The notes under the pieces are model-generated. The model searched no databases, had not been told where the DNA came from, and saw nothing but the letters and a program-made list of their open reading frames with translations. This document shows positions 3,235 through 61,420 of a stretch of DNA of 64,000 nucleotides, piece by piece. Origin of the DNA: Odiellus spinosus (Eukaryota; Arthropoda; Arachnida; Opiliones; Phalangiidae). The DNA lies in assembly GCA_963920705.1 (NCBI GenBank), contig OY987239.1, positions 9,453,504 to 9,517,503 on the forward strand, read 5' to 3'. How positions within the stretch are numbered: the stretch's first letter is position 1; each line of letters begins with the position of its first letter. The position numbers and the translations under genes are program-made.

Positions 3235-4104
3235 CTAAATGTGGTGTTCACTTAATACGGACCTTTTTCGCCAACCTTCATTCGTTAAACATTCGACGCA
3301 AAAGGTTAAAATGCCCAATGAAAGACCGATAATCCAAACACGAAAAAGGTTCGTCAGGTACACTTCGTTGATGGACTTGTAAGATACTGAAGTGGAGCCA
3401 GAATTATCCGATTCCAATACGTATCCACGTCTAAGTCTCGTAACTGATCTGTAAAAGTGTTCCGTCTGTCTCGTTTCAGTTATTCTCGTTGCCCTGAAAA
3501 ATAACAAGTTGGGAAACCAAAAATTACCTCTTCGACAATGTTAACCTAACCTAACCCTACTTCAAATAATAGATGGACACAATGAAATATTTATTTTAAA
3601 TGTAAATAAGTGGAATTCGAATTCTAACAATATAAATAAATGCATCGGTATCATTAGGCTGCACTGCGCAGGATATCCGCTTACGCGGGAAGTGACACAC
3701 ACACAGACACGACCAGTGTAAAACCTCCCCCTGAACTAAAGTTTAGTCGGGGAGGTAAAAAGCTATAATTTACTATTACGTGTTAGTGTACGTCTAAGAG
3801 TGTGACTCTTATCTGAGGTAGTTTCTTACAGATAGTCGATGTTCTCCTTGATGTCGCGAGGCAGTCGTTTATTGAATAACATGTGCGTGTAGAACGTTTC
3901 GTATTCTCTCTTTCCCACGTAGAGTTTCCTCTTACTTCGTTTCAGCATCTTGAAATAGGTAGGAGTCAGTTTCGAGAAGGTTTCGTGGATTATTGTAGCT
4001 TCCCCGCTGACAAATTTTTCACTAATTGTTTTGTCCTCTAACCATGGCCGACTTTCGACGCTTCGGAGCTGCACCAACAAATTGCGGCTCTTGGTCACGA
4101 AGTC
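3235..4104 (-). pseudogene. Duplicated 3' exon pair (S2 and TM3) of the U1 ionotropic receptor
   Basis: Extra copy of the last two coding exons of U1: S2 at 3830-4104 and TM3 with stop at 3235-3493. Both are open with intact splice signals. It lies downstream of the complete U1 gene on the same strand and has no S1, TM1 or TM2 exon of its own. It is therefore either a dead fragment or an alternative set of terminal exons. The tail reads NEGWRKRSVLSEHHI, the U1 version rather than the NQGW...SDHHI version of the other copies, which agrees with local duplication. Confidence 0.7.
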
Positions 4105-4690
4105 CTGCAATAGAAATTTAATTGTTTAATTAGGCTTTCTAAAACCTAGATTTCAAATTTGAATTTTCTGGCTAACACCTATGTTTTATTTTAAAGGATA
4201 GTGCAGGCTGCCACCTTGGGAACCGGTATATGTCTACTCTATGTGTACGTTACCTAGACTTCAACGTATAAGAGTAATTCCACAAATTGTAATCAAGCCA
4301 ATTACCCAAATATTTCTTTTTGGCAGCTCCTCCCACAAACGAAGTTTGAAATTGTTAATAATTATCATTTGCTTTGAAATTAGGCCTACTTAATAGTCCT
4401 GGTCGATTTCCAAAACCGGAAGTCTAGAGACCCTGGCGAAAATTTTGGGGGGAAAACTTTTTGTCACGTGATCGTCCGCCATCTTTTTGTAGTGTGAAAA
4501 TAGCGACAGACTAAAAAACGCCTCCAATATTTTATCATATAGGAAGCGTTGGACCAATAATAGATTCAACACAAGAATATCGAACCGAACGCTATACCTC
4601 TCGTATAACGCTAGTTTCGAACGGGAGGAGCTTACTAGTTTTGACGTTGTATGCGTTATGATTTTCACCCTATCACAAGCTTTCGAGGTC

Positions 4691-5046: not shown

Positions 5047-5047
5047 A

Positions 5048-7086
5048 GTCGAAGTAAAGGCGGCAAAGGTTCCTCCTAGCACCAAATTGCGCCTTTTCCT
5101 TTTCTCTTTTTCGTCATTCCTCGTTCAAAGTGGAAAAGTGTTAATGTCCCCCATTTGATGAAGTCAACAGCGGGATGAAGATTTTGCAAACAGGTTTAGG
5201 TTTTACATCTTTTAAAGAATGGAATGATAGGAAAATTGGTCTCATTTCGCTCTTCTTAAAAAGGTACGTTTATGCTAAATGTGGTGTTCACTTAATACGG
5301 ACCTTTTTCGCCAACCTTCATTCGTTAAACATTCGACGCAAAAGGTTAAAATGCCCAATGAAAGACCGATAATCCAAACACGAAAAAGGTTCGTCAGGTA
5401 CACTTCGTTGATGGACTTGTAAGATACTGAAGTGGAGCCAGAATTATCCGATTCCAATACGTATCCACGTCTAAGTCTCGTAACTGATCTGTAAAAGTGT
5501 TCCGTCTGTCTCGTTTCAGTTATTCTCGTTGCCCTGAAAAATAACAAGTTGGGAAACCAAAAATTACCTCTTCGACAATGTTAACCTAACCTAACCCTAC
5601 TTCAAATAATAGATGGACACAATGAAATATTTATTTTAAATGTAAATAAGTGGAATTCGAATTCTAACAATATAAATAAATGCATCGGTATCATTAGGCT
5701 GCACTGCGCAGGATATCCGCTTACGCGGGAAGTGACACACACACAGACACGACCAGTGTAAAACCTCCCCCTGAACTAAAGTTTAGTCGGGGAGGTAAAA
5801 AGCTATAATTTACTATTACGTGTTAGTGTACGTCTAAGAGTGTGACTCTTATCTGAGGTAGTTTCTTACAGATAGTCGATGTTCTCCTTGATGTCGCGAG
5901 GCAGTCGTTTATTGAATAACATGTGCGTGTAGAACGTTTCGTATTCTCTCTTTCCCACGTAGAGTTTCCTCTTACTTCGTTTCAGCATCTTGAAATAGGT
6001 AGGAGTCAGTTTCGAGAAGGTTTCGTGGATTATTGTAGCTTCCCCGCTGACAAATTTTTCACTAATTGTTTTGTCCTCTAACCATGGCCGACTTTCGACG
6101 CTTCGGAGCTGCACCAACAAATTGCGGCTCTTGGTCACGAAGTCCTGCAATAGAAATTTAATTGTTTAATTAGGCTTTCTAAAACCTAGATTTCAAATTT
6201 GAATTTTCTGGCTAACACCTATGTTTTATTTTAAAGGATAGTGCAGGCTGCCACCTTGGGAACCGGTATATGTCTACTCTATGTGTACGTTACCTAGACT
6301 TCAACGTATAAGAGTAATTCCACAAATTGTAATCAAGCCAATTACCCAAATATTTCTTTTTGGCAGCTCCTCCCACAAACGAAGTTTGAAATTGTTAATA
6401 ATTATCATTTGCTTTGAAATTAGGCCTACTTAATAGTCCTGGTCGATTTCCAAAACCGGAAGTCTAGAGACCCTGGCGAAAATTTTGGGGGGAAAACTTT
6501 TTGTCACGTGATCGTCCGCCATCTTTTTGTAGTGTGAAAATAGCGACAGACTAAAAAACGCCTCCAATATTTTATCATATAGGAAGCGTTGGACCAATAA
6601 TAGATTCAACACAAGAATATCGAACCGAACGCTATACCTCTCGTATAACGCTAGTTTCGAACGGGAGGAGCTTACTAGTTTTGACGTTGTATGCGTTATG
6701 ATTTTCACCCTATCACAAGCTTTCGAGGTCCAGTGGCGCCGCCAGGAATTTTTCTCACGTAGGCACGGCTTTTTTTGGGGGGCCCCAGTGGCCCTGACAA
6801 TAGCTATCGTTTCCTTTGCTATTTCTGATTCTCAAATCTCTCTCTGAAAGTTTTAGTTTTGGTTTTAGCCACTGCCCCGCTAACACTGGCACGACGCCAG
6901 TAATTAAGCTTATATGTCTACAGGTGTGCAACTCTATACTGAATTATACAAAAAAGAGGTTGCTTCGCACCCTTAAAAAAACTCTTTATCTAACTCGAAT
7001 CAAACCCGTGAAGGGACAGAAATTATTTGTTAGAGAAAGAGCAATTTCATATCTTTAAAATCTACTAACTATAATTTTAAAGATAT
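5048..7086. repeat. Tandem duplication, right copy (2,040-bp period)
   Basis: Second copy of the block at 3008-5046. It continues directly into the complete hAT-like element, so this copy is colinear with U5 and U6 and is taken as part of the full-length U1 gene. Confidence 0.9.
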
Positions 7087-10000
7087 GAAATTGCTCTTTC
7101 TCTAACAAATAATTTCTGTCCCTTCACGGGTTTGATTCGAGTTAGATAAAGAGTTTTTTTAAGGGTGCGAAGCAACCTCTTTTTTGTATAATTTCTGTCC
7201 TTTTTTCTCCAAAAATATACACCTTTTCCACATTTCACTATTTTGCTTTATAGGTTTATTGAACTTTAATTCTTACTAATGCTGAATAAAAATTAAAGCG
7301 TTTAATTGAGGCTTCAATCTATTCGTAATTGAGACCCTGGTACAAATCTCGAAAGGCAGAGATTAACTAACCTAACCTTACCTAAGTTGTAAAACAGGGA
7401 TGGGCTAGTTCAATTGATTAACTAACCTAAACTAATCTTACCTAAAATACTACAAGAGGAACGGGTTAGCCCGAGTTGTAGGGATTACCTAGTTGGAGGG
7501 ATGGGCTATTTCCAGTGTTTAATTAACCTAATTTAACCTTAAAGATTACTTGATGGAATGGGTAACCCGAGGGATTAACTAGTTGGAACGATGGGCTAAT
7601 TCGAGGAATTAACTAACCTAACCTAGCCTTACCTAAAATATTACAAATAGCCCGAGCTAAGGATTAACTAGTTGGAAGGATTGGCTAATTAGAGGGATTA
7701 ACTAACCTAACCTCACCTTAAAGATTACCAGATGGACGGGGGAGGTCGAGGGATTAACTAACCTAGCCTTACCTAAAATATTACAAGAGGGACGGGCTAG
7801 ACCGAGCTAGAGATTAAATTTATAATATTGAATCGCATCGACAAAAAATGAGCATGGAAAGCGAAACAATTCTTTAAAGCAGCATGAGAACATAATTCTG
7901 GAGGCCAGAAGTATGTGGCCGTTTATTTAACTCGCCGACATCAATTTCCGTTTCGTATATCCTATTTAAAATTCTAAATCTTTATTTTTTATTATAATTG
8001 AGTTAGACGTGATTTAGATACAGACTTCAATAATTGGTCAACTACTTAATAGCAACGTTATTACGTAGTTGTAATGACGAAGCTATTGGATCTAAAGCAC
8101 ATCCTAGTCGCTAAACTCAAGTATTTTAAAAAATAAAGTAGAGATTGAAAACGTTAAACTATAAATTTCATGTGTAATCGAGCACTTGGCAGGATATGAA
8201 GTCCAACTCGAGTGATATTTAATCCCTAGAACTCTCATAGTGAAATTTTTTTACAGTGACTTACTATATTATATTGGCCACATTTCTAGGTAAGGCGATT
8301 TACATTCAATCGCTTCGGTTTATTCGAGTACTCTACCCAAAAGATCGTGAGAAATGAGTCTCTTATCACCGAAATATAGGTGAGAAACGATTGCCTAAAC
8401 AATCGAAGACGTCACCATTGCACAAACGAGAGGGCTCCCCACAATTTTAAACGCTAACGTAAACCACGCGTTGGTACAGTGCATCTGTGAGTACTGAATA
8501 TGCAAATCTCGTTTATATAGGCCGAGAAGAGATATATTATTAAAGTTAAAAAATCAAATGATAAGAAAATCATTCCAACTTTTTAATTACGGTGAATTAA
8601 GGTGAATATAATGGGATACTCATGATATGACATAATAGTCAAAATTAGACGGCTGAAGAGGGCTACCCTAGTAAAAGAACCCAATAAATGCAATTTTCCG
8701 TTAACGATAAAAAATGCCATTAAAAAAAACTTATCAACTGTTTAATAAAATCAATTTTTGTTTATCAATTTAAAGCCAATTAATAAAGCTCGGCTAGTTA
8801 TATGTTTTACCCTTTTCGTCACCCATACAGGCATCTGTCTCTCTATTAACTCGAATTCGATGGATATTCATTATCATTCTACTGTTTAAGAAATAAAATT
8901 TTGTTTACCATTTTGAAGCAATTAATAAAGCTCGGCTAAGCTTATGATTTCACCCTTTTGTAACCCATTCAGGCGCCTTACTTTCTATTAACTCGAATTC
9001 GATGGATATTCCTTATCATTCTACTGTTTAAGAAATAAAATTTTTGATTATTCATTTTGAAGCAATTAGTAAAGCTCGGCTAAGCTTAAGATTTCACCCT
9101 TTTGTAACCCATTCAGGTACCTTACTTTCTATTACTTCGTATACTTAATCAACATTTCATTATTGAAATCTGTGTTTAACTAGAGATACTCTTGTACCTG
9201 ATCGAAGTCTTATCAAATTTTTTCAAAAGTACCTTTGTCTGTATTAATTCGAATTCAGTGGACGGTGGGAAGAGGGAAACGACGACGACGACGACGACGA
9301 CGCTTTCAGTTATCAATCGCCGCGGGTCCATTGGAAAAGGCATTACGGTTTCTGATGAAATTCGAGTTCAGATAAAGGGATAAACACGAACGTGTTTATC
9401 CTAATACGCCAGAGGGCCAGAGTCCAGAGAGCTTCGGCTACTAGAGGGTAGTACCTCAGTAAAAAAACGTAAAGGAAACTCGTAGGGGAAGGGGGCGAAT
9501 TTTTAAATCTTACATTCGCGCTCGAATACTGCGCAGTTTTAACTTTTTAAGCGCAAAATAAATGCAACCAACAATTTTCTTTCCAAACTTTTCGACATTT
9601 TCGTTCGGCTTATGAAATCTGCCACTTAACTGGGAATAAATGAGGCCGCTCGGTCTGAAATCAGGGGCCCCCTTTCTAAAAATTGGGGGGCCCTTCCAAA
9701 TTTTACACGTAGGCACGACAAATTTACACGTAGGCACGTGCCTACGTGTGCCTACTGCTGGCGGCGCCACTGTCGAGGTCCGCGAGACCCCGACAGAGAG
9801 CTAACTCTACCGGCAGCGCCTATCCCCGCAGCCTGATATCCTCCCCCCCGCACTTATCGTAGAAAACAGCCAACCGCTTCCTGCGCACGTGACATGACGC
9901 GCGGCGTAGACCTCCGTAGGCTCCATCCGCTTGAGACTAGCGCGCGGACAAAGGTATAGCTCTTCCATATTCTTGTGTTGAATCTATTCTTGGTTGGACT

Positions 10001-12654
10001 AACAACTTGAATTTGGTTTGTGGGAAATAAAATTAGAAATAGTCTGGCAGTCTGTTACTACAAAAAGAAGGCGGCGCGGCTATGAGACAAGGGCCCTTTT
10101 CCGGCAAATCGACCAGGACTATATTTCGTTTAGTACCGCTATACTTTAAGCCTTAGTACGGTTACCTCGAGGAATCTCTCTTCCCGAGAATTATCCCTGT
10201 AATAGCAAAGAAGATTTGGTTTGGCCAATAAATCCTCCAGAGAATCGATGAAGAAATTGTCGTCGACGATTTGTTGACTCGTGAAGTTACCACACCAGTT
10301 GAAAATTATAACCGTTACTCCCAAGAGCCAACAGGCTCGGACTAGCCTTAATGTCGCTTTCTTCGCGTCCGCTACGGCTGCCAATAGAAAAATTAGAATC
10401 ACCAAATATTACGGGACAATTGAACTCGAGGGTAGCTTGTTAATTTTAGTATCTCGGACATAAATTCTAAATTAATTGATATAGAAGTTGTTGATTCATA
10501 AAGGAGTTTCAGGAGTATACGATTAAAAATAATTTCTGTCCCGTAAGGGGGCGCGACGCTTTTGAGAAGTCTAGTTTATTATTAGTTGTTAAATTTGCGA
10601 TACTTAACAGTTGTTTAGAATATCAGCCGTGTGAGTCCAGAGGGACTCGGCGAACGAAGAAAAACGACTTTCACGACGCATCCTCTTTCTGAAGCCGATA
10701 AAAGAAGAAAAGGCGGATATCACGAGCATCGAAAGAGCCACCAAAACCCAAACCAGGTCACCGAGTCCCTGGATTGACAGTAATTCCGAAGCATCCCTCT
10801 GATTAGTTTCAACAGACGAATATATTACGAAGGAAACAATAAACGAAAACGGAGGTACGTGATGAAGACTCGGCGCATCCTCGTCCACATTATAGAAACG
10901 AAGCGTTGAATCGGTTATCTGCCCTCGACGAAAAGGAATGTATAAACTTGATTATTTGAGCGAGAGTGGGGCCAGGTTGCGGTAAAAGTTAGATGGAGGT
11001 CATAAGTTACTCCAAGTTACTCTCACGTTGGATCCCCCGTTTAAATATGATTGTTTCATAATTAATCATTATCCTTATAGTCTACTTACGCCGTATTCAA
11101 CACCCAAGTTATGTATTTCGTGCCTATCCGCCCGTTTTGCATTGCTGAAGTTTGAGAGACGTTTCCGTAATTCAAAATCGTTCATAGATACGAGTTTGAC
11201 ATTTTTTAAATTTTGGAAAATGAGCCAAGTCCAAAAAAATATGCGTTGGCTATGAATGGTGTATGGCCACTTGGTAAAAGCCCTCACAAACCCAAGCGTA
11301 AACTGAAAATTTTGCAATCGGATTGGAATACTTGTAATTACAATTAGAAGCCGATTAAACCCTCCTTTGATGTCTATTACTCCCGGCCCCCGGGTCTTAT
11401 CTACCCCTCTCTGTATGGGTTCGTCTCAAAAATCGCGATTCGTACGCCTCCTAACGGTAGATATTTTCGGAGCGGGAATTCGTCTAGCAACCTTGGAGTT
11501 CGTCAACCAAACGTCGTCGTTTGTGGAGAGAGAGAGAGAATTTCCAATTTTGGGTAGACAGGGGGAAATGAAGTAGGACCCCTCCGATCTCGTAAAATTG
11601 GGAATTTTACCCATACAGAGAGGAGCGCTATATGGAACATTAGAGTAGTAGACTTCAAAGGAGGGTTTCATGGGCTCCCCAAAAAAACTGTTACACCATG
11701 AAGTATGGGTCTTTTAAATAATTAGTTAATTTCATTTATATTTCATCATGGTCAATCATTTTAATATTAAGGACGTAGATTATGTTTTTGTCTTTCCATA
11801 TGTCGGGTTTTTTGTTTGTTAGTTTGTAAATACACTGGCCTTTATTAATTTAATGATATTATTAACAAATACAATCAGATATTATCATTTATAACAAGAT
11901 ACCAATTTAGTATATTCATTTCAATTTAAATTAGAATTTTACTCTTTGCTCCAATCTTTGCCATATGAAATTTTCCTATTTGGTTGATTTTTGTCAAACC
12001 AGAAGCCGATTAAACCCTCCTTTGAAGTCTATTACTCCCGGGTCTTGTCTACCCCTCTCTGTATGGGTTAGTTTCAAAAAGCGCGATTCGTACGCCTCCT
12101 AACGGTAGATATTTTCGGAGCGGGAGTTCGTCCAGCGAATATCTCTAGCAGCCTCGGAGTTCGTCAACCAAACGTCGTCGTTTGTGGAGAGAGAGAATTT
12201 CCAATTTTTCGTAGACAGGGGGGTATGAAGTAGGACCCCTCTGATCTCGTAAAATTGTGGATTTTACCCATACAGAGAGGAGCGCTATATGGAACATTAG
12301 AGTATTAGACTTCAAAGGAGGGTTTCATCTACTTCTGGTCAAACTAAAATGGAATTTTCCCTTTGATAATGTAGTGGAATTTTACAGTGCCAAGTGTGGC
12401 TAGTTTTGGTTACTTAGAGGGATTACTTTAATTCAAATCTCAACTCTAAATCTCTTCTGATTTTTCTTACAATTCAGAATGCTTCTCGAAGGGCTCTTAT
12501 TCGCTTCAGCACGTACGATTATTGCTTTAGCTCACCGGATGATTAGCGGTAATTCAAAATCAAGCGGTAACGGCAATCAGAAAAATTTTCTTACCTCTGG
12601 TAGACTGTAAGTGAAATTATAGGGGTTTGCCAAAGTAAATTTTTCATTTTCCAT
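5275..12654 (-). CDS. Divergent ionotropic receptor, copy U1 (type A)
   Basis: Predicted ligand-gated cation channel of chemosensory neurons, in the IR branch of the glutamate receptor superfamily. Coding exons 5'-3': 12595-12654 (candidate first exon, MENEKFTLANPYNFTYSLPE), 11090-11302 (S1), 10609-10918 (S1 end, TM1, pore start), 10166-10377 (TM2), 5870-6144 (S2) and 5275-5533 (TM3, stop). Junction phases agree throughout: 0, 0, 1, 0, 2. TM1 is VWVLVALSMLVISAFSSFIG. The pore segment is ESLWTHTADILNN. TM2 contains RLVRACWLLGVTVIIF, followed by the superfamily-like CGNFTSQQ and DSLEDLL. TM3 is LFRVWIIGLSLGILTFCVE with a short tail. The glutamate-binding Arg of S1 is not in its usual place after ITDST, as is common in tuning IRs. 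No ATD or signal peptide was found. A 3,042-bp hAT-like element sits in the TM2-S2 intron. The five 3' exons are well supported; the first exon is tentative. Confidence 0.75.
6723..6730. repeat. 8-bp target-site duplication of the hAT-like element in U1
   Basis: TCGAGGTC here and again at 9773-9780 flanks the element. The single unduplicated copy is visible at the empty sites of U2-U4, for example near 18024. Confidence 0.9.
6942..7193. repeat. Perfect inverted repeat, 120-bp arms, 12-bp spacer
   Basis: Left arm 6942-7061 and right arm 7074-7193 are exact reverse complements by my reading; the spacer is 7062-7073. As RNA or single-stranded DNA this would fold into a very long hairpin. The same structure occurs at 41309-41560, 53010-53261 and 55684-55935. 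The 2,040-bp duplication in U1 ends inside the equivalent right arm. Confidence 0.92.
7360..7830. repeat. Degenerate TAACC-rich tandem repeats inside the hAT-like element
   Basis: Irregular repeats of ggattaactaacctaacct-type units. CCTAA is the insect telomere unit (TTAGG on the other strand), but the array is degenerate with long interruptions, so it is telomere-like rather than telomeric. Equivalents lie near 41727-42197, 52373-52843 (inverted) and 56102-56572. Confidence 0.7.
8745..9175. repeat. Triplicated ~143-bp direct repeat inside the hAT-like element
   Basis: The anchor aaagctcggcta recurs at about 8785, 8927 and 9071. Each copy is followed by a shared block that includes acccttttgtaacccattcagg. 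The copies are diverged, so the triplication is older than the spread of the element in this array. It is also present near 43112-43542 and 57487-57917, and inverted in the 50407-53472 copy. Confidence 0.8.
9279..9302. repeat. (ACG)n microsatellite
   Basis: Eight consecutive ACG triplets inside the hAT-like element. The run is also present in the U5, U6 and inverted copies. Confidence 0.9.
9726..9749. repeat. 24-bp perfect palindrome in the hAT right subterminal region
   Basis: Built from two head-to-head copies of ACACGTAGGCAC meeting at CACGTG. A further direct copy lies just to the left, and one copy of the core is near the left end of the element. Repeated subterminal motifs are often transposase binding sites in hAT elements; that role is inferred. 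Equivalents are at 44093-44116, 50430-50453 and 58492-58515. Confidence 0.75.
11345..11671. mobile_element. MITE2a, right end truncated (U1)
   Basis: Short TIR element starting near agaagccgattaaaccctcc, just upstream of the S1 exon. The right end stops at gggtttcat and lacks the final cggcttctg seen in type B copies, so the element is broken. It is noncoding. Confidence 0.75.
12000..12337. mobile_element. MITE2b, complete, TSD GTCAAAC (U1)
   Basis: A 338-bp noncoding element with ~32-bp imperfect TIRs (CAGAAGCCGATTAAACCCTC at the left), flanked by the 7-bp duplication GTCAAAC at 11993-11999 and 12338-12344. The type B units carry a related element at a different nearby target (TTTGGTC), so this is a separate insertion. 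The superfamily is not assigned; a 7-bp duplication does not fit typical hAT (8 bp) or Tc1 (TA). Confidence 0.85.
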
Positions 12655-15280
12655 CTTGGTGTTGGATAGCTTCAAAGACGCCCTTGTTACGCGTTAATTC
12701 CGCCTGAAAGTTTTTTCAATATTTCAAAATATTATTTAGTGCTGTAGCATTTACCAACTGGTCTAAAAAGGTTATATGCAGATTTTGTTGCCTTAATTGT
12801 TCTCATCTATTGGCCTTCCTTCGCAAAAAGTCTACCAATCGCGTCGTTTTAACGATATAATATCATTTCCATTTTAGTTTTAAGGTTTGTAACTGCAACT
12901 CGCGCGCTTCGAGTTTAATTTAAAACCTCTCGTTTCAATTAAAACTCGAGAGAATTTGCATCGATTGCCATAATTGGCAATGAAGTTTAAAACTGGTAAT
13001 TAAGTCGATGGTTCTTTTTTTTTTTATTTTCCGAGCGTCGCGGGTAAACTTACGCGTTTCCGTCTGACAGACAGATAGACGTATATAGCTCAACGATGCC
13101 CTCAATCGTGCTTTTTTTTTGCAATTAGATTTCTTTAAGATAGCGCTTGCAAATGAAACAAACTGAAAAATTTGCAACGAACCGAAAACTGAATTTTTCA
13201 CTTTGACAGTTATGTAAAAATCTTAACCACTACTAATATCATTTCGAAAAATATAGAATATAATAATTGGATTATTATATTCTAGGAATATTGTCTCTCT
13301 ATTCGCGACTGTTAAGACGTAATTATCTAGGAAATATATAGTTTAATAGACGTCAGGAAAAATTGCCTTTTAAACTTGGCTAAAGGGAGACTGGATATGG
13401 AAAATCAAATTATCTCGGAAATGAGCCATAAGTAGAATTATTTTGGCCTTAATCGGGTCGTCAACGCCACGTTCGATGTCCATATATCGGTCAAGTTTCC
13501 TTATCAGCCTCCCTTTGTATTTTATTCAAATCCATTTATACAGTCTAGGTCAAAATATCTGGTCGTAACAGACGTTATTAGTACTTAGCGCTCAATTTTG
13601 AAGTAAAGGTGACAAGAATTTGCATCTTTGGGCTATATTCGGTGGAATGGGATAATCTGTCAAATGAGATTCGGCCGAATAGAACAAGATCAATACACCA
13701 TTTAACCATTACTTGGGGCGCTATAGCGGCATAGAGCGAACTTTCACTTGGTGAAAATGGCAGGGAAAAAAACCTTCATGGGGTAATACGCGCGCCTCAC
13801 CAAGTGAACGTTTTTTGTTTTTTTTTCGCCACTAGGAAGCGTTTCGAGCGCGGGCATGCGCACAGTGGAAGAGCAAAGTATTGTATTATACTCAACAACC
13901 GTTGGGTGTTTCGTTTATTACAGCTTCCTCTTAGGGCTGAGATTGCAACCAATTAAATTCTTCCCGAAAATAACGTAAAACCCCTTCGTGGCAAGGTTAG
14001 TAAAGATACTATTTAAGAAGACTCTGCCCAGTCACGTGACTGTTTGGAATCCGGGCTTGAATTCCAAAGCGCGGCCATTTTAATTTCTACTTACAATTGG
14101 CTACCTAAGGTTGAGCAACCTTTAGCAATTTTAAAGCAGCTAGTGGTTGAGCAACTTTTAGGAGATTTTGAGCAGCGTTAGGGTGATTATAAACAACTAT
14201 CGGCAACTCGAAAGTTTCTGAATACTTTTCAACAAGATTTAAGGCACATGATTGGCAATTTATCGTCGATTATTTGGCTTTCATTTGTCGACTAGGGTTA
14301 CGGTATTTTAGCGAAATAAATTGAGCTTTTTTGGTGAATTTTAGCCTCGCGATTGGTGCGTGACGTCAGTAAACGAGAACTTTACCTACTCAGATTTAGA
14401 TGAAAGAGTGCAGTGGGCTATAGGATAGTCGTCGCGTTACCGGCGATTGAAGCCAAAAGGTAAAAGTTTAGAAAGTTATTATTTCCGCGTCTCTTAATAG
14501 CGAGCGATAAAAGCCGTTAATGATTTGAAACACGATATTATATAACGGAAAATTGTCGTCATTTCAAAATACGAGCTTGATTAAATTGCCTATAATAGGG
14601 TATTCATTTTTATTGCCGGCCATTTAAAACTCATTTCGTTTTGGGAGAATGTTTGCTGATTTTTCGACGGCTCCAGTTTTGTCAAGGGCTTATATTCTAG
14701 CGAGGGGGTGTGATTTCCGCCGTGATTGTGTCTCTCTCTCTCTCTCGTCATACTTTACCCAATCAGAATGCTTAGTACCAAGGCGCCACCTCCTAACTGA
14801 TTCATGCAATACGAGTTACCCCATTGGTGCGCCTCCCCTGGAAGTTCCTCTTCTATCCAATATTGTCTATCAAGTTTCCACGAACAAATTACTCGTATTC
14901 AAACGTATAACGATGGATAAGAAAATTCACGTTTCAAGAATTAGTCTAAAATATAAGAAAAATATTTCAAAATTGACTTTTAATTCGAAGAATATAAATA
15001 AAACGACGAAACTAAGATTTTAAATCATCTTTTTAATCGTTAATTTCCACGAAAATAAATTTTGAAAGTTTTTTATCCGAACGTATAACGCGGATAATAT
15101 TCTAAGATAAGGCCATTTTTGGATAAAAACGGATATGGATTAGGTTATTTTACTTTATCTTTGAATTATTTAACTCGAATGAAAAATAGTCTATTTTTAA
15201 TCAAACAGATAATATACATCAGAGAAGCCAGTAATTAAGTTCCCAAGTGCTTATTTAAAATTATAATTTGACAATAACGG
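12655..15280. other. U1 spacer, no supported gene
   Basis: Spacer between the U1 candidate first exon and the U2 gene. It contains poly-T runs, a (TC)n run near 14731-14746, the E-box palindrome at 14029-14042 and unannotated AT-rich sequence. A plus-strand open frame at 14649-15023 is not kept at equal length in paralogous spacers, so I do not call it. Confidence 0.65.
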
Positions 15281-16154: not shown

Positions 16155-16161
16155 TTTTGAT

Positions 16162-29497: not shown

Positions 29498-30712
29498 CTT
29501 GGTGTTGGATAGCTTCTAAGACCCCCTTGTTACGCGTTAATTCCACCTGAAAGCTTTTTCAATATTTCAAAATATTATTTAGTGCTTAATTGTTCTCATC
29601 TATTGACCTTCCTTCGCAAAGAAGTTGAGAAATCGCGTCACTTTATGTGAACGATATAATATCATTTTAATTTTAAGGTTTGGAACTGCAACTCGCGCGC
29701 TTCGAGTTTAATTTAAAACCTCTCGTTTCAATTAAAACTCAAGAGAATTTGCATCAATTGGCAATGAAGTTTAAAACTGGTTATTAAGTCGATGGATCCT
29801 TTTTTTTTTTATTTTCCGAGCGTCACGGGTAAACTTACGCGTTTCCGCCTGACAGACAGATAGTCGTGTTTAGCTCAACGATGCCCTCAATCGTGCTTTT
29901 TTTTTTTTTTGCAATTAGATTTCTTTAAGATAGCGTTTTCACCTTGACAGTTATGTCAAAATCTTAACCACTAGTAACATCATTTCGAAAAATGTCCACG
30001 ATTTGAAACAAACCCAACTAGTTGTATTATTATATTCTAGGAATATTGTCTCTCTATTTGCGACTGTTAAGACGTAATTATCTACGAAATATATAGTTTA
30101 ATAGACGTCAGGAAAAATTGCCTTTTAAACTTGGCTAAAGGGAGACTGGACATGGAAAATCATATTATCTCGGAAATGAGCCATAAATAGAATTATTTTG
30201 GCCTTAATCGGGTCGTCAACGCCACGTTCGATGTCCATATATCGATCAACTTTCCTTATCAGCCTCCCTTTGTATTTTATTAAAATCCATTTATAGTCTA
30301 GGTCAAAATATCTGGTCGTAACAAAAGTTATTAGTAGCGCTCAATTTTGAAGTAAAGGTGACAAGAATTTGCATCTTTGGGCTCTATTCGGTGGAATGGG
30401 ATAGTCTGTCAAATGAGATTTGGCCGAATAGAACAGGATCAATACACCATTTAACCATTACTTGGGGCGCTATAGCGGCATAGGGCGAACTTTCTCTTGG
30501 TGGAAATGGCAGGGAAAAAATCTTCATGGGGTAATACGCGCGCCTCACCAAGTGAACGTTTTTTTTTTCGCCACTAGGAAGCGTTTCGAGCGCGGGCATG
30601 CGCACAGTGAAAGAGCAAAGTATTGTATTATACTCAACAACCGTTGGGTGTTTCGTTTATTACAGCTTCCTCTTAGGGCTGAGATTGCAACCAATTATCA
30701 AGAAGTTTTGAT
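29498..30712. other. U3 spacer, shortened by a ~2.2-kb deletion
   Basis: Matches the U2 spacer up to gattgcaaccaatta (about 30697), then jumps to the sequence just left of MITE1. The missing part (equivalent to about 22337-24510) includes the E-box palindrome, MITE2 remnant, double CRE palindrome and MSWIYRFL frame. At most one base of homology lies at the junction. No gene seen in what remains. Confidence 0.85.
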
Positions 30713-50317: not shown

Positions 50318-50406
50318 TTTGCTCCCAAAACGCCACAGCTTTGATTGACAGGCACGGTGATGACGTAGCCTGTTTCTTTTTGTAGACTCTAGAGTCATGT
50401 CCTGGA

Positions 50407-53400
50407 CAGTGGCGCCGCCAGCAGTAGGCACACGTAGGCACGTGCCTACGTGTAAATTTGTCGTGCCTACGTGTAAAATTTGGAAGGGCCCCCCAATTTT
50501 TAGAAAGGGGGCCCCTGATTTCAGACCGAGCGGCCTCATTTATTCCCAGTTAAGTGGCAGATTTCATAAGCCGAACGAAAATGTCGAAAAGTTTGGAAAG
50601 AAAATTGTTGGTTGCATTTATTTTGCGCTTAAAAAGTTAAAACTGCGCAGTATTCGAGCGCGAATGTAAGATTTAAAAATTCGCCCCCTTCCCCTACGAG
50701 TTTCCTTTACGTTTTTTTACTGAGGTACTACCCTCTAGTAGCCGAAGCTCTCTGGACTCTGGCCCTCTGGCGTATTAGGATAAACACGTTCGTGTTTATT
50801 AGGATAAACACGTTCGTGTTTATCCCTTTATCTGAACTCGAATTTCATCAGAAACCGTAATGCCTTTTCCAATGGACCCGCGGCGCTTGATAACTGAAAG
50901 CGTCGTCGTCGTCGTCGTCGTCGTTTCCCTCTTCCCACCGTCCACTGAATTCGAATTAATACAGACAAAGGTACTTTTGAAAAAATTTGATAAGACTTCG
51001 ATCAGGTACAAGAGTATCTCTAGTTAAACACAGATTTCAATAATGAAATGTTGATTAAGTATACGAAGTAATAGAAAGTAAGGTACCTGAATGGGTTACA
51101 AAAGGGTGAAATCTTAAGCTTAGCCGAGCTTTACTAATTGCTTCAAAATGAATAATCAAAAATTTTATTTCTTAAACAGTAGAATGATAAGGAATATCCA
51201 TCGAATTCGAGTTAATAGAAAGTAAGGCGCCTGAATGGGTTACAAAAGGGTGAAATCATAAGCTTAGCCGAGCTTTATTAATTGCTTCAAAATGGTAAAC
51301 AAAATTTTATTTCTTAAACAGTAGAATGATAATGAATATCCATCGAATTCGAGTTAATAGAGAGACAGATGCCTGTATGGGTGACGAAAAGGGTAAAACA
51401 TATAACTAGCCGAGCTTTATTAATTGGCTTTAAATTGATAAACAAAAATTGATTTTATTAAACAGTTGATAAGTTTTTTTTAATGGCATTTTTTATCGTT
51501 AACGGAAAATTGCATTTATTGGGTTCTTTTACTAGGGTAGCCCTCTTCAGCCGTCTAATTTTGACTATTATGTCATATCATGAGTATCCCATTATATTCA
51601 CCTTAATTCACCGTAATTAAAAAGTTGGAATGATTTTCTTATCATTTGATTTTTTAACTTTAATAATATATCTCTTCTCGGCCTATATAAACGAGATTTG
51701 CATATTCAGTACTCACAGATGCACTGTACCAACGCGTGGTTTACGTTAGCGTTTAAAATTGTGGGGAGCCCTCTCGTTTGTGCAATGGTGACGTCTTCGA
51801 TTGTTTAGGCAATCGTTTCTCACCTATATTTCGGTGATAAGAGACTCATTTCTCACGATCTTTTGGGTAGAGTACTCGAATAAACCGAAGCGATTGAATG
51901 TAAATCGCCTTACCTAGAAATGTGGCCAATATAATATAGTAAGTCACTGTAAAAACATTTCACTATGAGAGTTCTAGGGATTAAATATCACTCGAGTTGG
52001 ACTTCATATCCTGCCAAGTGCTCGATTACACATGAAATTTATAGTTTAACGTTTTCAATCTCTACTTTATTTTTTAAAATACTTGAGTTTAGCGACTAGG
52101 ATGTGCTTTAGATCCAATAGCTTCGTCATTACAACTACGTAATAACGTTGCTATTAAGTAGTTGACCAATTATTGAAGTCTGTATCTAAATCACGTCTAA
52201 CTCAATTATAATAAAAAATAAAGATTTAGAATTTTAAATAGGATATACGAAACGGAAATTGATGTCGGCGAGTTAAATAAACGGCCACATACTTCTGGCC
52301 TCCAGAATTATGTTCTCATGCTGCTTTAAAGAATTGTTTCGCTTTCCATGCTCATTTTTTGTCGATGCGATTCAATATTATAAATTTAATCTCTAGCTCG
52401 GTCTAGCCCGTCCCTCTTGTAATATTTTAGGTAAGGCTAGGTTAGTTAATCCCTCGACCTCCCCCGTCCATCTGGTAATCTTTAAGGTGAGGTTAGGTTA
52501 GTTAATCCCTCTAATTAGCCAATCCTTCCAACTAGTTAATCCTTAGCTCGGGCTATTTGTAATATTTTAGGTAAGGCTAGGTTAGGTTAGTTAATTCCTC
52601 GAATTAGCCCATCGTTCCAACTAGTTAATCCCTCGGGTTACCCATTCCATCAAGTAATCTTTAAGGTTAAATTAGGTTAATTAAACACTGGAAATAGCCC
52701 ATCCCTCCAACTAGGTAATCCCTACAACTCGGGCTAACCCGTTCCTCTTGTAGTATTTTAGGTAAGATTAGTTTAGGTTAGTTAATCAATTGAACTAGCC
52801 CATCCCTGTTTTACAACTTAGGTAAGGTTAGGTTAGTTAATCTCTGCCTTTCGAGATTTGTACCAGGGTCTCAATTACGAATAGATTGAAGCCTCAATTA
52901 AACGCTTTAATTTTTATTCAGCATTAGTAAGAATTAAAGTTCAATAAACCTATAAAGCAAAATAGTGAAATGTGGAAAAGGTGTATATTTTTGGAGAAAA
53001 AAGGACAGAAATTATACAAAAAAGAGGTTGCTTCGCACCCTTAAAAAAACTCTTTATCTAACTCGAATCAAACCCGTGAAGGGACAGAAATTATTTGTTA
53101 GAGAAAGAGCAATTTCATATCTTTAAAATTATAGTTAGTAGATTTTAAAGATATGAAATTGCTCTTTCTCTAACAAATAATTTCTGTCCCTTCACGGGTT
53201 TGATTCGAGTTAGATAAAGAGTTTTTTTAAGGGTGCGAAGCAACCTCTTTTTTGTATAATTCAGTATAGAGTTGCACACCTGTAGACATATAAGCTTAAT
53301 TACTGGCGTCGTGCCAGTGTTAGCGGGGCAGTGGCTAAAACCAAAACTAAAACTTTCAGAGAGAGATTTGAGAATCAGAAATAGCAAAGGAAACGATAGC

Positions 53401-53472
53401 TATTGTCAGGGCCACTGGGGCCCCCCAAAAAAAGCCGTGCCTACGTGAGAAAAATTCCTGGCGGCGCCACTG
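50407..53472 (-). mobile_element. Non-autonomous hAT-like element, 3,066 bp, inverted, new target site
   Basis: Full-length copy in opposite orientation, with the same 15-bp TIRs, flanked by GTCCTGGA at 50399-50406 and 53473-53480. Paralogous units show the uninterrupted site (gtcctggattcg), for example near 16034, 24397 and 39097. It shares with the U6 copy an extra 24-bp tandem duplication (at about 50781-50822 here) that U1 and U5 lack. It was therefore mobilised from a U6-like copy or the reverse. It interrupts the minus-strand frame discussed at 15667-16080. Confidence 0.92.
53010..53261. repeat. Perfect inverted repeat, 120-bp arms (inverted hAT)
   Basis: Same structure as 6942-7193; the spacer is reversed, as expected from the orientation. 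Confidence 0.9.
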
Positions 53473-53893: not shown

Positions 53894-54014
53894 TTTTGAT
53901 GAAGTCAGCAGCGGGATGAAGATTTTGCAAACAGGTTTAGGTTTTACATCTTATAAAGAATGGAATGATAGGAAAATTAGTCTCATTTCGCTCTTCTTAA
54001 AATGTACGCTTATG

Positions 54015-57000
54015 CTAAATGTGGTGATCACTTAATACGGACCTTTTTCGCCAACCTTGATTCGTTAAACATTCGACGCAAAAGGTTAAAATGCCCAATG
54101 AAAGACCGATAATCCAAACACGAAAAAGGTTCGTCAGGTACACTTCGTTGATGGACTTGTAAGATACTGTAGTGGAGCCAGAATTATCCGATTCCAATAC
54201 GTATCCACGTCTAAGTCTCGTAACTGATCTGTAAAAGTGTTCCGTCTGTCTCGTTTCAGTTATTCTCGTTGCCCTGAAAAATAACAAGTTGGGAAACCAA
54301 AATATTACCTCTTCGACAATGTTAACCTAACCTAACCCTACTTCAAATAATAGATGGACACAATGAAATATTTATTTTAAATGTAAATAAGTGGAATTCG
54401 AATTCTAACAATATAAATAAATGCATCGGTATCATTAGGCTGCACTGCGCTGGATATCCGCTTACGCGGGAAGTGACACACACACAGACACGACCAGTGT
54501 AAAACCTCCCCCTGAACTAAAGTTTAGTCGGGGAGGTAAAAAGCTATAATTTACTATTACGTGTTAGTGTACGTCTAAGAGTGTGACTCTTATCTGAGGT
54601 AGTTTCTTACAGATAGTCGATGTTCTCCTTGATGTCGCGAGGCAGTCGTTTATTGAATAACATGTGCGTGTAGAACGTTTCGTATTCTCTCTTTCCCACG
54701 TAGAGTTTCCGCTTACTTCGTTTCAGCATCTTGAAATAGGTAGGAGTCAGTTTCGAGAAGGTTTCGTGGATTATTGTAGCTTTCCCGCTGACAAATTTTT
54801 CACTAATTGTTTTGTCCTCTAACCATGACCGACTTTCGACGCTTCGGAGCTGCACCAACAAATTGCGGTTCTTGGTCACGAAGTCCTGCAATAGAAATTT
54901 AATTGTTTAATTTAGGCTTTCTAAAACCTAGATTTCAAATTTGAATTTTCTGGCTAACACCTATGTTTTATTTTAAAGGATAGTGCAGGCTGCCACCTTG
55001 GGAACCGGTATATGTCTACTCTATGTGTACGTTACCTAGACTTCAACGTATAAGAGTAATTCCACAAATTGTAATCAACCCAATTACCCAAATATTTCTT
55101 TTTGGCAGCTCCTCCCACAAACGAAGTTTGAAATTGTTAATAATTATCATTTGCTTTGAAATTAGGCCTACTTAATAGTCCTGGTCGATTTCCAAAACCG
55201 GAAGTCTAGAGACCCTGGCGAAAATTTTGGGGGGAAAACTTTTTGTCACGTGATCGTCCGCCATCTTTTTGTAGTGTGAAAATAGCGACAGACTAAAAAA
55301 CGCCTCCAATATTTTATCATATAGGAAGCGTTGGACCAATAATAGATTCAACACAAGAATATCGAACCGAACGCTATACCTCTCGTATAACGCTAGTTTC
55401 GAACGGGAGGAGCTTACTAGTTTTGACGTTGTATGCGTTATGATTTTCACCCTATCACAAGCTTTCGAGGTCCAGTGGCGCCGCCAGGAATTTTTCTCAC
55501 GTAGGCACGGCTTTTTTTGGGGGGCCCCAGTGGCCCTGACAATAGCTATCGTTTCCTTTGCTATTTCTGATTCTCAAATCTCTCTCTGAAAGTTTTAGTT
55601 TTGGTTTTAGCCACTGCCCCGCTAACACTGGCACGACGCCAGTAATTAAGCTTATATGTCTACAGGTGTGCAACTCTATACTGAATTATACAAAAAAGAG
55701 GTTGCTTCGCACCCTTAAAAAAACTCTTTATCTAACTCGAATCAAACCCGTGAAGGGACAGAAATTATTTGTTAGAGAAAGAGCAATTTCATATCTTTAA
55801 AATCTACTAACTATAATTTTAAAGATATGAAATTGCTCTTTCTCTAACAAATAATTTCTGTCCCTTCACGGGTTTGATTCGAGTTAGATAAAGAGTTTTT
55901 TTAAGGGTGCGAAGCAACCTCTTTTTTGTATAATTTCTGTCCTTTTTTCTCCAAAAATATACACCTTTTCCACATTTCACTATTTTGCTTTATAGGTTTA
56001 TTGAACTTTAATTCTTACTAATGCTGAATAAAAATTAAAGCGTTTAATTGAGGCTTCAATCTATTCGTAATTGAGACCCTGGTACAAATCTCGAAAGGCA
56101 GAGATTAACTAACCTAACCTTACCTAAGTTGTAAAACAGGGATGGGCTAGTTCAATTGATTAACTAACCTAAACTAATCTTACCTAAAATACTACAAGAG
56201 GAACGGGTTAGCCCGAGTTGTAGGGATTACCTAGTTGGAGGGATGGGCTATTTCCAGTGTTTAATTAACCTAATTTAACCTTAAAGATTACTTGATGGAA
56301 TGGGTAACCCGAGGGATTAACTAGTTGGAACGATGGGCTAATTCGAGGAATTAACTAACCTAACCTAGCCTTACCTAAAATATTACAAATAGCCCGAGCT
56401 AAGGATTAACTAGTTGGAAGGATTGGCTAATTAGAGGGATTAACTAACCTAACCTCACCTTAAAGATTACCAGATGGACGGGGGAGGTCGAGGGATTAAC
56501 TAACCTAGCCTTACCTAAAATATTACAAGAGGGACGGGCTAGACCGAGCTAGAGATTAAATTTATAATATTGAATCGCATCGACAAAAAATGAGCATGGA
56601 AAGCGAAACAATTCTTTAAAGCAGCATGAGAACATAATTCTGGAGGCCAGAAGTATGTGGCCGTTTATTTAACTCGCCGACATCAATTTCCGTTTCGTAT
56701 ATCCTATTTAAAATTCTAAATCTTTATTTTTTATTATAATTGAGTTAGACGTGATTTAGATACAGACTTCAATAATTGGTCAACTACTTAATAGCAACGT
56801 TATTACGTAGTTGTAATGACGAAGCTATTGGATCTAAAGCACATCCTAGTCGCTAAACTCAAGTATTTTAAAAAATAAAGTAGAGATTGAAAACGTTAAA
56901 CTATAAATTTCATGTGTAATCGAGCACTTGGCAGGATATGAAGTCCAACTCGAGTGATATTTAATCCCTAGAACTCTCATAGTGAAATGTTTTTACAGTG

Positions 57001-60000
57001 ACTTACTATATTATATTGGCCACATTTCTAGGTAAGGCGATTTACATTCAATCGCTTCGGTTTATTCGAGTACTCTACCCAAAAGATCGTGAGAAATGAG
57101 TCTCTTATCACCGAAATATAGGTGAGAAACGATTGCCTAAACAATCGAAGACGTCACCATTGCACAAACGAGAGGGCTCCCCACAATTTTAAACGCTAAC
57201 GTAAACCACGCGTTGGTACAGTGCATCTGTGAGTACTGAATATGCAAATCTCGTTTATATAGGCCGAGAAGAGATATATTATTAAAGTTAAAAAATCAAA
57301 TGATAAGAAAATCATTCCAACTTTTTAATTACGGTGAATTAAGGTGAATATAATGGGATACTCATGATATGACATAATAGTCAAAATTAGACGGCTGAAG
57401 AGGGCTACCCTAGTAAAAGAACCCAATAAATGCAATTTTCCGTTAACGATAAAAAATGCCATTAAAAAAAACTTATCAACTGTTTAATAAAATCAATTTT
57501 TGTTTATCAATTTAAAGCCAATTAATAAAGCTCGGCTAGTTATATGTTTTACCCTTTTCGTCACCCATACAGGCATCTGTCTCTCTATTAACTCGAATTC
57601 GATGGATATTCATTATCATTCTACTGTTTAAGAAATAAAATTTTGTTTACCATTTTGAAGCAATTAATAAAGCTCGGCTAAGCTTATGATTTCACCCTTT
57701 TGTAACCCATTCAGGCGCCTTACTTTCTATTAACTCGAATTCGATGGATATTCCTTATCATTCTACTGTTTAAGAAATAAAATTTTTGATTATTCATTTT
57801 GAAGCAATTAGTAAAGCTCGGCTAAGCTTAAGATTTCACCCTTTTGTAACCCATTCAGGTACCTTACTTTCTATTACTTCGTATACTTAATCAACATTTC
57901 ATTATTGAAATCTGTGTTTAACTAGAGATACTCTTGTACCTGATCGAAGTCTTATCAAATTTTTTCAAAAGTACCTTTGTCTGTATTAATTCGAATTCAG
58001 TGGACGGTGGGAAGAGGGAAACGACGACGACGACGACGACGACGCTTTCAGTTATCAAGCGCCGCGGGTCCATTGGAAAAAGCATTACGGTTTCTGATGA
58101 AATTCGAGTTCAGATAAAGGGATAAACACGAACGTGTTTATCCTAATAAACACGAACGTGTTTATCCTAATACGCCAGAGGGCCAGAGTCCAGAGAGCTT
58201 CGGCTACTAGAGGGTAGTACCTCAGTAAAAAAACGTAAAGGAAACTCGTAGGGGAAGGGGGCGAATTTTTAAATCTTACATTCGCGCTCGAATACTGCGC
58301 AGTTTTAACTTTTTAAGCGCAAAATAAATGCAACCAACAATTTTCTTTCCAAACTTTTCGACATTTTCGTTCGGCTTATGAAATCTGCCACTTAACTGGG
58401 AATAAATGAGGCCGCTCGGTCTGAAATCAGGGGCCCCCTTTCTAAAAATTGGGGGGCCCTTCCAAATTTTACACGTAGGCACGACAAATTTACACGTAGG
58501 CACGTGCCTACGTGTGCCTACTGCTGGCGGCGCCACTGTCGAGGTCCGCGAGACCCCGACAGAGAGCTAACTCTACCGGCAGCGCCTATCCCCGCAGCCT
58601 GATATCCTCCCCCCCGCACTTATCGTAGAAAACAGCCAACCGCTTCCTGCGCACGTGACATGACGCGCGGCGTAGACCTCCGTAGGCTCCATCCGCTTGA
58701 GACTAGCGCGCGGACAAAGGTATAGCTCTTCCATATTCTTGTGTTGAATCTATTCTTGGTTGGACTAACAACTTGAATTTGGTTTGTGGGAAATAAAATT
58801 AGAAATAGTCTGGCAGTCTGTTACTACAAAAAGAAGGCGGCGCGGCTATGAGACAAGGGCCCTTTTCCGGCAAATCGACCAGGACTATATTTCGTTTAGT
58901 ACCGCTATACTTTAAGCCTTAGTACGGTTACCTCGAGGAATCTCTCTTCCCGAGAATTATCCCTGTAATAGCAAAGAAGATTTGGTTTGGCCAATAAATC
59001 CTCCAGAGAATCGATGAAGAAATTGTCGTCGACGATTTGTTGACTCGTGAAGTTACCACACCAGTTGAAAATTATAACCGTTACTCCCAAGAGCCAACAG
59101 GCTCGGACTAGCCTTAATGTCGCTTTCTTCGCGTCCGCTACGGCTGCCAATAGAAAAATTAGAATCACCAAATATTACGGGACAATTGAACTCGAGGGTA
59201 GCTTGTTAATTTTAGTATCTCGGACATAAATTCTAAATTAATTGATATAGAAGTTGTTGATTCATAAAGGAGTTTCAGGAGTATACGATTAAAAATAATT
59301 TCTGTCCCGTAAGGGGGCGCGACGCTTTTGAGAAGTCTAGTTTATTATTAGTTGTTAAATTTGCGATACTTAACAGTTGTTTAGAATATCAGCCGTGTGA
59401 GTCCAGAGGGACTCGGCGAACGAAGAAAAACGACTTTCACGACGCATCCTCTTTCTGAAGCCGATAAAAGAAGAAAAGGCGGATATCACGAGCATCGAAA
59501 GAGCCACCAAAACCCAAACCAGGTCACCGAGTCCCTGGATTGACAGTAATTCCGAAGCATCCCTCTGATTAGTTTCAACAGACGAATATATTACGAAGGA
59601 AACAATAAACGAAAACGGAGGTACGTGATGAAGACTCGGCGCATCCTCGTCCACATTATAGAAACGAAGCGTTGAATCGGTTATCTGCCCTCGACGAAAA
59701 GGAATGTATAAACTTGATTATTTGAGCGAGAGTGGGGCCAGGTTGCGGTAAAAGTTAGATGGAGGTCATAAGTTACTCCAAGTTACTCTCACGTTGGATC
59801 CCCCGTTTAAATATGATTGTTTCATAATTAATCATTATCCTTATAGTCTACTTACGCCGTATTCAACACCCAAGTTATGTATTTCGTGCCTATCCGCCCG
59901 TTTTGCATTGCTGAAGTTTGAGAGACGTTTCCGTAATTCAAAATCGTTCATAGATACGAGTTTGACATTTTTTAAATTTTGGAAAATGAGCCAAGTCCAA

Positions 60001-61420
60001 AAAAATATGCGTTGGCTATGAATGGTGTATGGCCACTTGGTAAAAGCCCTCACAAACCCAAGCGTAAACTGAAAATTTTGCAATCGGATTGGAATACTTG
60101 TAATTACAATTAGAAGCCGATTAAACCCTCCTTTGATGTCTATTACTCCCGGCCCCCGGGTCTTATCTACCCCTCTCTGTATGGGTTCGTCTCAAAAATC
60201 GCGATTCGTACGCCTCCTAACGGTAGATATTTTCGGAGCGGGAATTCGTCTAGCAACCTTGGAGTTCGTCAACCAAACGTCGTCGTTTGTGGAGAGAGAG
60301 AGAGAATTTCCAATTTTGGGTAGACAGGGGGAAATGAAGTAGGACCCCTCCGATCTCGTAAAATTGGGAATTTTACCCATACAGAGAGGAGCGCTATATG
60401 GAACATTAGAGTAGTAGACTTCAAAGGAGGGTTTCATGGGCTCCCCAAAAAAACTGTTACACCATGAAGTATGGGTCTTTTAAATAATTAGTTAATTTCA
60501 TTTATATTTCATCATGGTCAATCATTTTAATATTAAGGACGTAGATTATGTTTTTGTCTTTCCATATGTCGGGTTTTTTGTTTGTTAGTTTGTAAATACA
60601 CTGGCCTTTATTAATTTAATGATATTATTAACAAATACAATCAGATATTATCATTTATAACAAGATACCAATTTAGTATATTCATTTCAATTTAAATTAG
60701 AATTTTACTCTTTGCTCCAATCTTTGCCATATGAAATTTTCCTATTTGGTTGATTTTTGTCAAACCAGAAGCCGATTAAACCCTCCTTTGAAGTCTATTA
60801 CTCCCGGGTCTTGTCTACCCCTCTCTGTATGGGTTAGTTTCAAAAAGCGCGATTCGTACGCCTCCTAACGGTAGATATTTTCGGAGCGGGAGTTCGTCCA
60901 GCGAATATCTCTAGCAGCCTCGGAGTTCGTCAACCAAACGTCGTCGTTTGTGGAGAGAGAGAATTTCCAATTTTTCGTAGACAGGGGGGTATGAAGTAGG
61001 ACCCCTCTGATCTCGTAAAATTGTGGATTTTACCCATACAGAGAGGAGCGCTATATGGAACATTAGAGTATTAGACTTCAAAGGAGGGTTTCATCTACTT
61101 CTGGTCAAACTAAAATGGAATTTTCCCTTTGATAATGTAGTGGAATTTTACAGTGCCAAGTGTGGCTAGTTTTGGTTACTTAGAGGGATTACTTTAATTC
61201 AAATCTCAACTCTAAATCTCTTCTGATTTTTCTTACAATTCAGAATGCTTCTCGAAGGGCTCTTATTCGCTTCAGCACGTACGATTATTGCTTTAGCTCA
61301 CCGGATGATTAGCGGTAATTCAAAATCAAGCGGTAACGGCAATCAGAAAAATTTTCTTACCTCTGGTAGACTGTAAGTGAAATTATAGGGGTTTGCCAAA
61401 GTAAATTTTTCATTTTCCAT
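54015..61420 (-). CDS. Divergent ionotropic receptor, copy U6 (mosaic, type A body)
   Basis: Exons 5'-3': 61361-61420 (candidate first exon), 59856-60068 (S1), 59375-59684 (TM1), 58932-59143 (TM2), 54611-54885 (S2) and 54015-54273 (TM3, stop). All exon peptides match U5, including VSGKATII in S2 and SDHHI at the end, so U5 and U6 come from one mosaic ancestor. The TM2-S2 intron carries a 3,066-bp hAT-like copy at the TCGAGGTC site. The type B extra exon (20245-20301 equivalent) is lost, as in U1 and U5. Confidence 0.75.
55473..58538 (+). mobile_element. Non-autonomous hAT-like element, 3,066 bp (U6 copy)
   Basis: TIRs as in U1. TCGAGGTC duplication at 55465-55472 and 58539-58546. It is 24 bp longer than U1 and U5 because the inverted motif GATAAACACG-AA-CGTGTTTATC is tandemly duplicated near 58121-58170. 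Contains the palindrome at 55684-55935, TAACC repeats near 56102-56572, the triplicated block near 57487-57917 and the subterminal palindrome at 58492-58515. Confidence 0.9.
55684..55935. repeat. Perfect inverted repeat, 120-bp arms (U6 hAT)
   Basis: Same structure as 6942-7193. Confidence 0.9.
60111..60437. mobile_element. MITE2a, right end truncated (U6)
   Basis: Same truncated form as 11345-11671. Confidence 0.75.
60766..61103. mobile_element. MITE2b, TSD GTCAAAC (U6)
   Basis: Same element and target as 12000-12337. Confidence 0.85.

Follow-up and report, generated by a model that had tools for sequence, protein, structure and literature searches.

The locus raises the question of what kind of gene is repeated here, how its near-identical copies arose, and whether they still encode working proteins. 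Self-alignment and exon search of the window, by which we mean the whole stretch of 64,000 nucleotides analysed (C17:9453504-9517503), revealed six copies of a minus-strand multi-exon gene arranged head to tail, as the original prediction had held, with exons A to E present once in each of the six (Table 1). Reading the minus strand of one unit gave exon lengths of 213 nt for A, 310 for B, 212 for C, 275 for D, and 259 for E, which together make up 422 codons plus a stop; the predicted joining in phases 0, 1, 0, 2 without an in-frame stop was borne out in 6/6 copies, with AG/GT at the A-to-E borders. The spliced proteins fall into the same classes that had been proposed from the exon peptides, U3 being identical to U4 and U5 to U6, while U1 and U2 are each distinct, and the window units share ~93-100% DNA identity over aligned pieces of 0.4-11 kb, far above chance. 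The proposed start of the array at position 3235 falls in a spare D+E pair of U1 that had escaped attention, as had a further 5' exon, X0. The spare pair stems from a 2.04-kb tandem duplication (3005-5046 = 5045-7086, 99.95% identity), and the spacer between U3 and U4 is ~2.2 kb shorter. Overall, the array is built of units of 6-16 kb, each with one gene and six recognisable exons (X0, A-E). MITE-like inverted-repeat elements of ~340 bp are found as a pair between X0 and exon A in each window unit, and relatives of this element also occur at L054, the locus of the dispersed paralog p1, and at L056, that of the left-edge copy of the array.

Table 1. Features of the array in the window, with positions counted from its first nucleotide; exon positions are given per unit.
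Feature	Position	Strand	Remarks
Extra exon pair of U1	3235..4104	-	D 3830-4104, E 3235-3493; from the 2.04-kb tandem duplication
U1	5275..12701	-	X0 12595-12701, A 11090-11302, B 10609-10918, C 10166-10377, D 5870-6144, E 5275-5533; protein class 4
U2	16575..21182	-	X0 21074-21182, A 19343-19555, B 18862-19171, C 18419-18630, D 17171-17445, E 16575-16833; protein class 2
U3	24938..29546	-	X0 29438-29546, A 27707-27919, B 27226-27535, C 26783-26994, D 25534-25808, E 24938-25196; protein class 3
U4	31126..35733	-	X0 35625-35733, A 33894-34106, B 33413-33722, C 32970-33181, D 31722-31996, E 31126-31384; protein class 3, same protein as U3
U5	39640..47067	-	X0 46961-47067, A 45456-45668, B 44975-45284, C 44532-44743, D 40236-40510, E 39640-39898; protein class 5
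U6	54015..61467	-	X0 61361-61467, A 59856-60068, B 59375-59684, C 58932-59143, D 54611-54885, E 54015-54273; protein class 5, same protein as U5
hAT-like element, intron C-D of U1	6731..9772		TSD TCGAGGTC
Same hAT-like insertion, intron C-D of U5	41098..44139		
Same hAT-like insertion, intron C-D of U6	55473..58538		
Second hAT-like insertion, inverted, between U5 and U6	50407..53472		TSD GTCCTGGA; 99.87% identical to the copy at 55465-58544
MITE-like element pairs	11480-12347, 19729-20788, 28093-29152, 34280-35339, 45846-46713, 60246-61113		

Judged by its sequence, the protein encoded by the array is a divergent ionotropic receptor (IR). The Lig_chan profile (PF00060) matched one window copy over residues 126-358 (E 8.5e-7, 29.3 bits) and the left-edge copy over profile positions 3-145 of 146 (33.7 bits), in agreement with the predicted ionotropic-receptor-like gene; only the left-edge copy passes the profile clearly, the tested window copy falling just below the cut-off of 30.8 bits. 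The partial paralog p1 reached 16.3 bits (E 0.0089), below the cut-off. Assigned by eye, exons A-E carry the end of S1, TM1 with the pore, TM2, S2, and TM3. The Lig_chan domain across TM1-pore-TM2-S2-TM3, by which the iGluR/IR superfamily is recognised, is present at the scores given above. Sequence searches of the PDB returned chance matches only and no receptor, and an NCBIfam search gave nothing useful. When Lig_chan was run exon by exon across the genome, at least 77 matches were obtained at E 0.001 (best 150 of 314 candidates scored), and the array exons were absent among the matches listed from these 150; such a family is missed by an exon-by-exon search, and IR counts in genomes may thus be too low. 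IRs are known as a large, fast-evolving, and species-specific family, whose members have a signal peptide and a complete extracellular S1. Loss of the glutamate-binding R, T, and D/E, a feature that sets IRs apart from synaptic iGluRs, is mentioned in a study of the barnacle Balanus improvisus (PMC6497305).

The newly recognised exon X0 ends with MENEKFTSANPYNFTYSLPE, is followed by the donor gtaaga, and precedes exon A by ~1.3-1.5 kb in every unit; it can also be recognised in p1 and in the copies at the two edges of the array. Units can be sorted into types I, II, and III according to haplotypes 1, 2, and 3 of segment A-C, and in types I and II the ATG of X0 is preceded by in-frame stops, in p1 by a 2-base indel, which suggests that translation probably starts at this ATG. 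On the same grounds, we rejected X0 as an internal exon with coding sequence upstream for these units. X0 itself is without clear constraint, with 1 synonymous and 10 non-synonymous differences between the left copy and p1. Crude hydrophobicity scanning, which an exon far upstream could escape, covered U3, U4, U5, the two edge copies, and p1 and detected no signal-peptide-like exon common to all upstream of X0. Short hydrophobic ATG frames were picked up by the same scan, namely one common to U3, U4, and U5 (score 1.78) and one of 26 codons in U4 and U5 only, both without a GT[AG]AG donor, as well as several in the right-edge copy, some of them with a donor. A candidate first exon of the right-edge copy (MERTKVAVHWTAGAFYFLVLLV...), with a signal peptide and in frame with exon A, looked real, but we rejected it as coding: its indels are not divisible by three and the paralogs share no ATG, which suggests a conserved intron, and the TTTCAG/TTTTTAG acceptor kept in the copies compared speaks against it as well. 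At L054, L055, and L056, an intron block ~100 bases upstream of exon A can be aligned among paralogs, unlike other parts of the intron, and holds a second acceptor-like TTTTAG or TTTCAG. With no shared signal-peptide exon, the copies would, going by IR anatomy, lack a signal peptide as well as the beginning of S1. The array copies may be S1-truncated, or an upstream exon may have been missed, and it is this that most calls their function into question.

The window covers part of a ~300-kb run of ~30 nearly identical IR genes, a very young expansion of a known type. Using a 103-aa paralog exon B as query against the 443-Mb assembly (best 150 of 264 candidates scored), we found that the array extends past the window on both sides, with at least 30 exon-B copies at C17:9322018-9622115; all 30 among the matches listed lie on one strand and are free of stops. 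A six-frame search with the 422-aa protein placed array exon matches from C17:9318348 to 9622118 among the matches listed. The six copies originally predicted understate the array, being a fifth of the 30 array exon-B copies among the matches listed. Within a contiguous 214 kb (C17:9433504-9647503) there are 18 complete copies, of which 17 are open through X0 and A-E and represent 11 protein classes; the remaining pieces are one copy truncated at the end of this interval and one spare D+E pair. The eighteenth complete copy, at the right edge of the array, carries a one-base deletion in exon A, visible as a one-base alignment gap with a change of frame. The left-edge copy, 71% identical, is open and has the same exon structure; it is without the array's stop codon, its frame continuing beyond the 40 bases examined. 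Outside the array, at least 120 exon-B matches are scattered over many contigs with identity to the query down to 28%, a few of them containing stops, and the dispersed paralogs p1 (X0 and A-C seen) and p2 (A and B seen) keep their frames and splice sites. One paralog exon B is found at 100% amino-acid identity on both C9:1153945 and C280:519056, perhaps as an uncollapsed haplotype. With an array of at least 30 copies, at least 120 further exon-B matches, and dN/dS of 0.39-0.97 among diverged copies, the family is large and fast-evolving in this genome.

The wider chemosensory repertoire bears on the host. The insect setting of the original prediction is not supported: the odorant-receptor model 7tm_6 has a single match in the genome, within a 403-codon frame for which the gustatory model 7tm_7 gives the better score, and OS-D, PBP_GOBP, and Hemocyanin_M each gave 0 matches, zero matches not being proof of absence. 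Arthropod cuticle proteins (Chitin_bind_4), with 89 matches, mark the host as an arthropod, and, taken together, these profiles indicate that it is probably not an insect; a crustacean, for instance a barnacle, would be compatible with them, though as no more than a guess. The genome further contains 67 matches to 7tm_7, most of them in one array on C15 and many apparently single-exon. This array (C15:11707755-11829689) comprises dozens of gustatory-receptor-like genes, many of which cover most of the 370-position profile with a single open frame. A run of cuticle-protein exons at C8:10817749-10859428, five of them with identical scores, is perhaps another young tandem array.

Transposon insertions, large duplicate blocks, and reassorted exons bear on how the copies arose. 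The predicted transposon polymorphisms are real: a hAT-like element of 3.04-3.07 kb, with 15-bp ends (TIR CAGTGGCGCCGCCAG) and 8-bp target duplications, sits at two different sites, and sister units show clean, intact empty sites. The insertion in intron C-D is found in U1, U5, and U6 and is absent from U2-U4, and across the 214 kb it occurs in 10/18 complete copies, which are those with A-C type 1, the other 8 being without it. No open frame over 168 codons overlaps the four window copies of the element, which contains an internal 142-bp repeat of 2.8 units. Multi-unit blocks, counted at ≥99.5% identity and ≥9 kb, recur at different offsets, with lengths of 25.7 kb (99.61% identity), 25.0 kb (99.82%), and 20.7 kb (99.89%). 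Exons have been reassorted as well, in that A-C type 1 or 2 is combined with exon E type 1 or 2 in all four possible ways (g9, g13, g2, g3), which points to recombination between C and E.

At a finer scale, segment A-C shows 38 variable sites in 735 exon bases vs 5 in 402 intron bases and only 3 distinct sequences, whereas segment D-E has no such contrast (11/534 exon vs 9/337 intron) and 8 distinct sequences (in both cases 18 copies, right-edge copy excluded). The contrast between exons and introns belongs to one pair of types, II and III, and rests on three A-C haplotypes: this pair differs at 21/1269 exon sites, of which 5 fall in A, 13 in B, 3 in E, and none in C or D, vs 11/3229 intron sites (p=1e-5), with 0/171 differences in intron A-B. 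It is absent between types I and II (28/1269 vs 77/2836, p=0.39), between I and III (p=0.68), and between the right-edge copy and each type (p=0.37-0.83). All exon-B differences between II and III sit in the first 157 bases; at 10/13 of them type III has the base of the right-edge copy, and at 11/13 types I and II agree. Introns group II with III and exon B groups I with II, a pattern best explained by exchange of short, exon-scale tracts, to which selection on S1 may add. Synonymous sites in A+B also look raised between II and III (3 of an estimated ~115 vs 11/3229 intron sites, p=0.011), which fits imported tracts. The near-identical units and blocks, together with the exon-focused differences between II and III, are in line with the very recent duplication and conversion that had been proposed.

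To gauge constraint, we calculated dN/dS by the Nei-Gojobori method, leaving out exon A of the right-edge copy and covering some exons only for p1 and p2. Values were 0.39-0.65 against p1 and p2, 0.54-0.62 for U2 or U4 (type II) vs U1 or U5 (type I), 0.56-0.84 for the right-edge copy vs the array, and 0.85-0.97 for the left copy vs the array. Near-identical pairs (U4 or U2 vs g15, U1 vs U5), with 7-21 changes each, gave 1.39-1.67. These estimates indicate weak long-term constraint on the family; the values for the two edge copies and those above 1 in near-identical pairs do not show recent constraint.

Our preferred reading, which we regard as very probable, is that of a young head-to-tail array of ~30 divergent IR genes on one chromosome, born by unequal crossing-over with exon-scale gene conversion. 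Units and blocks that are up to 99.9% identical could also come from mis-assembly or from uncollapsed haplotypes that multiplied a few real copies, and the exon B shared by C9 and C280 hints that uncollapsed haplotigs may exist in this assembly. Such an artefact is highly improbable, as the 214 kb contain no N and the copies carry distinct marks, including presence or absence of the hAT-like element with its target duplications, the inverted second insertion, the 2.04-kb duplication, the shortened U3-U4 spacer, and the reassorted exon alleles, and the big duplicate blocks lie at several offsets, unlike a single haplotype switch. The exon-focused differences between II and III might owe to positive selection on the ligand-binding S1 lobe and not to conversion, given that A+B differ by 15 non-synonymous to 3 synonymous changes and that exon density is about five times intron density. 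We consider this somewhat unlikely, since 15:3 is close to the site ratio of ~3.6:1, synonymous sites look raised as well, and the match of type III to the right-edge copy in exon B fits exchange of an old segment.

A further possibility is that the array is mostly an expanding genomic by-product, made of N-terminally truncated, non-functional receptors too young to have decayed. The missing signal-peptide exon in the scanned copies, a level of exon conservation that does not exceed that of introns in the comparison of types I and II, and the frameshift of the right-edge copy would all fit, and large IR families elsewhere contain 37-44% pseudogenes according to the relevant passages of two genome studies (PMC6938034, PMC6175461). 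Against this stand the intact frames of 17/18 complete copies, the stop-free exon B in 30/30 array copies among the matches listed, the conservation of X0 and the exon structure in the left copy and p1 and of the exon A acceptor in p2, and dN/dS of 0.39-0.65 against p1 and p2, and we judge this reading to be unlikely.

The kind of system is already known. Croset et al. 2010, in the passages on divergent IRs (PMC2924276), describe them as iGluR-type channels that are species-specific and under weaker purifying selection than other IRs, and attribute their tandem clusters to non-allelic homologous recombination; the array resembles them in its channel type and weak constraint. According to the same passages, the divergent IRs of Drosophila are mostly single-exon, form arrays of at most 7 genes, and have a median dN/dS of 0.149, unlike the ~30 multi-exon, near-identical genes in one run with dN/dS of 0.39 or more observed here. 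Large and recent IR expansions, in families of much greater size, are reported for the dipluran Campodea augens, with 2,431 IRs (PMC6938034), and for Blattella germanica, with 897 (PMC6175461), and an expansion to 69 genes for a centipede (PMC4244043). Campodea also has no odorant receptors, and segmental duplications are noted in its genome; its IRs are mostly intronless, commonly lie on both strands within arrays, and include 37% pseudogenes (PMC6938034), while pseudogenes make up 43.8% in Blattella (PMC6175461). The present array is, in contrast, multi-exon, of one orientation among the matches listed, and open in 17/18 complete copies. For cyprid antennules of Balanus improvisus, divergent IRs are reported (PMC6497305), and the search there for OR, CSP, and OBP came up empty, which parallels the present genome; the transcripts resolved no more than four divergent IRs and some partial gustatory-like receptors (PMC6497305), compared with 67 7tm_7 matches here. 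Our searches of open-licence PMC papers met no description of such an array. What distinguishes it is the number of genes in one run, their near identity, the multi-exon structure, the single orientation, and the few dead copies.

Under the reading that we favour, unequal crossing-over would multiply single units and blocks of 20-26 kb, and conversion over short tracts, whose limits perhaps coincide with those of exon homology, would move exon alleles between units, such that it may keep the array homogeneous and at the same time introduce variation in the S1 lobe. A bolder version, which we think quite unlikely, sees the array as a receptor-diversifying cassette bank, whose units are kept near-identical by unequal crossing-over while the S1 exons A and B are swapped among units and with the more than 100 dispersed relatives by exon-limited conversion. 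If this were true, a common channel body could acquire new ligand specificities at a far higher rate than point mutation would allow.

A chemosensory receptor is recognised by expression in sensory neurons together with IR25a/IR8a/IR76b. By analogy with the known family, we infer a chemosensory function for the array proteins, which might serve as tuning subunits of heteromeric chemoreceptor cation channels for taste or smell. The array would then supply dose and a few S1 variants, not thirty different receptors. The 214 kb examined form a gapless record of a very young IR expansion, in which the birth of units, the duplication of blocks, transposon insertions next to their empty counterparts, and the exchange of exons are each discernible, and the array offers a test of whether near-identical receptors are there for dose or for variation of S1.
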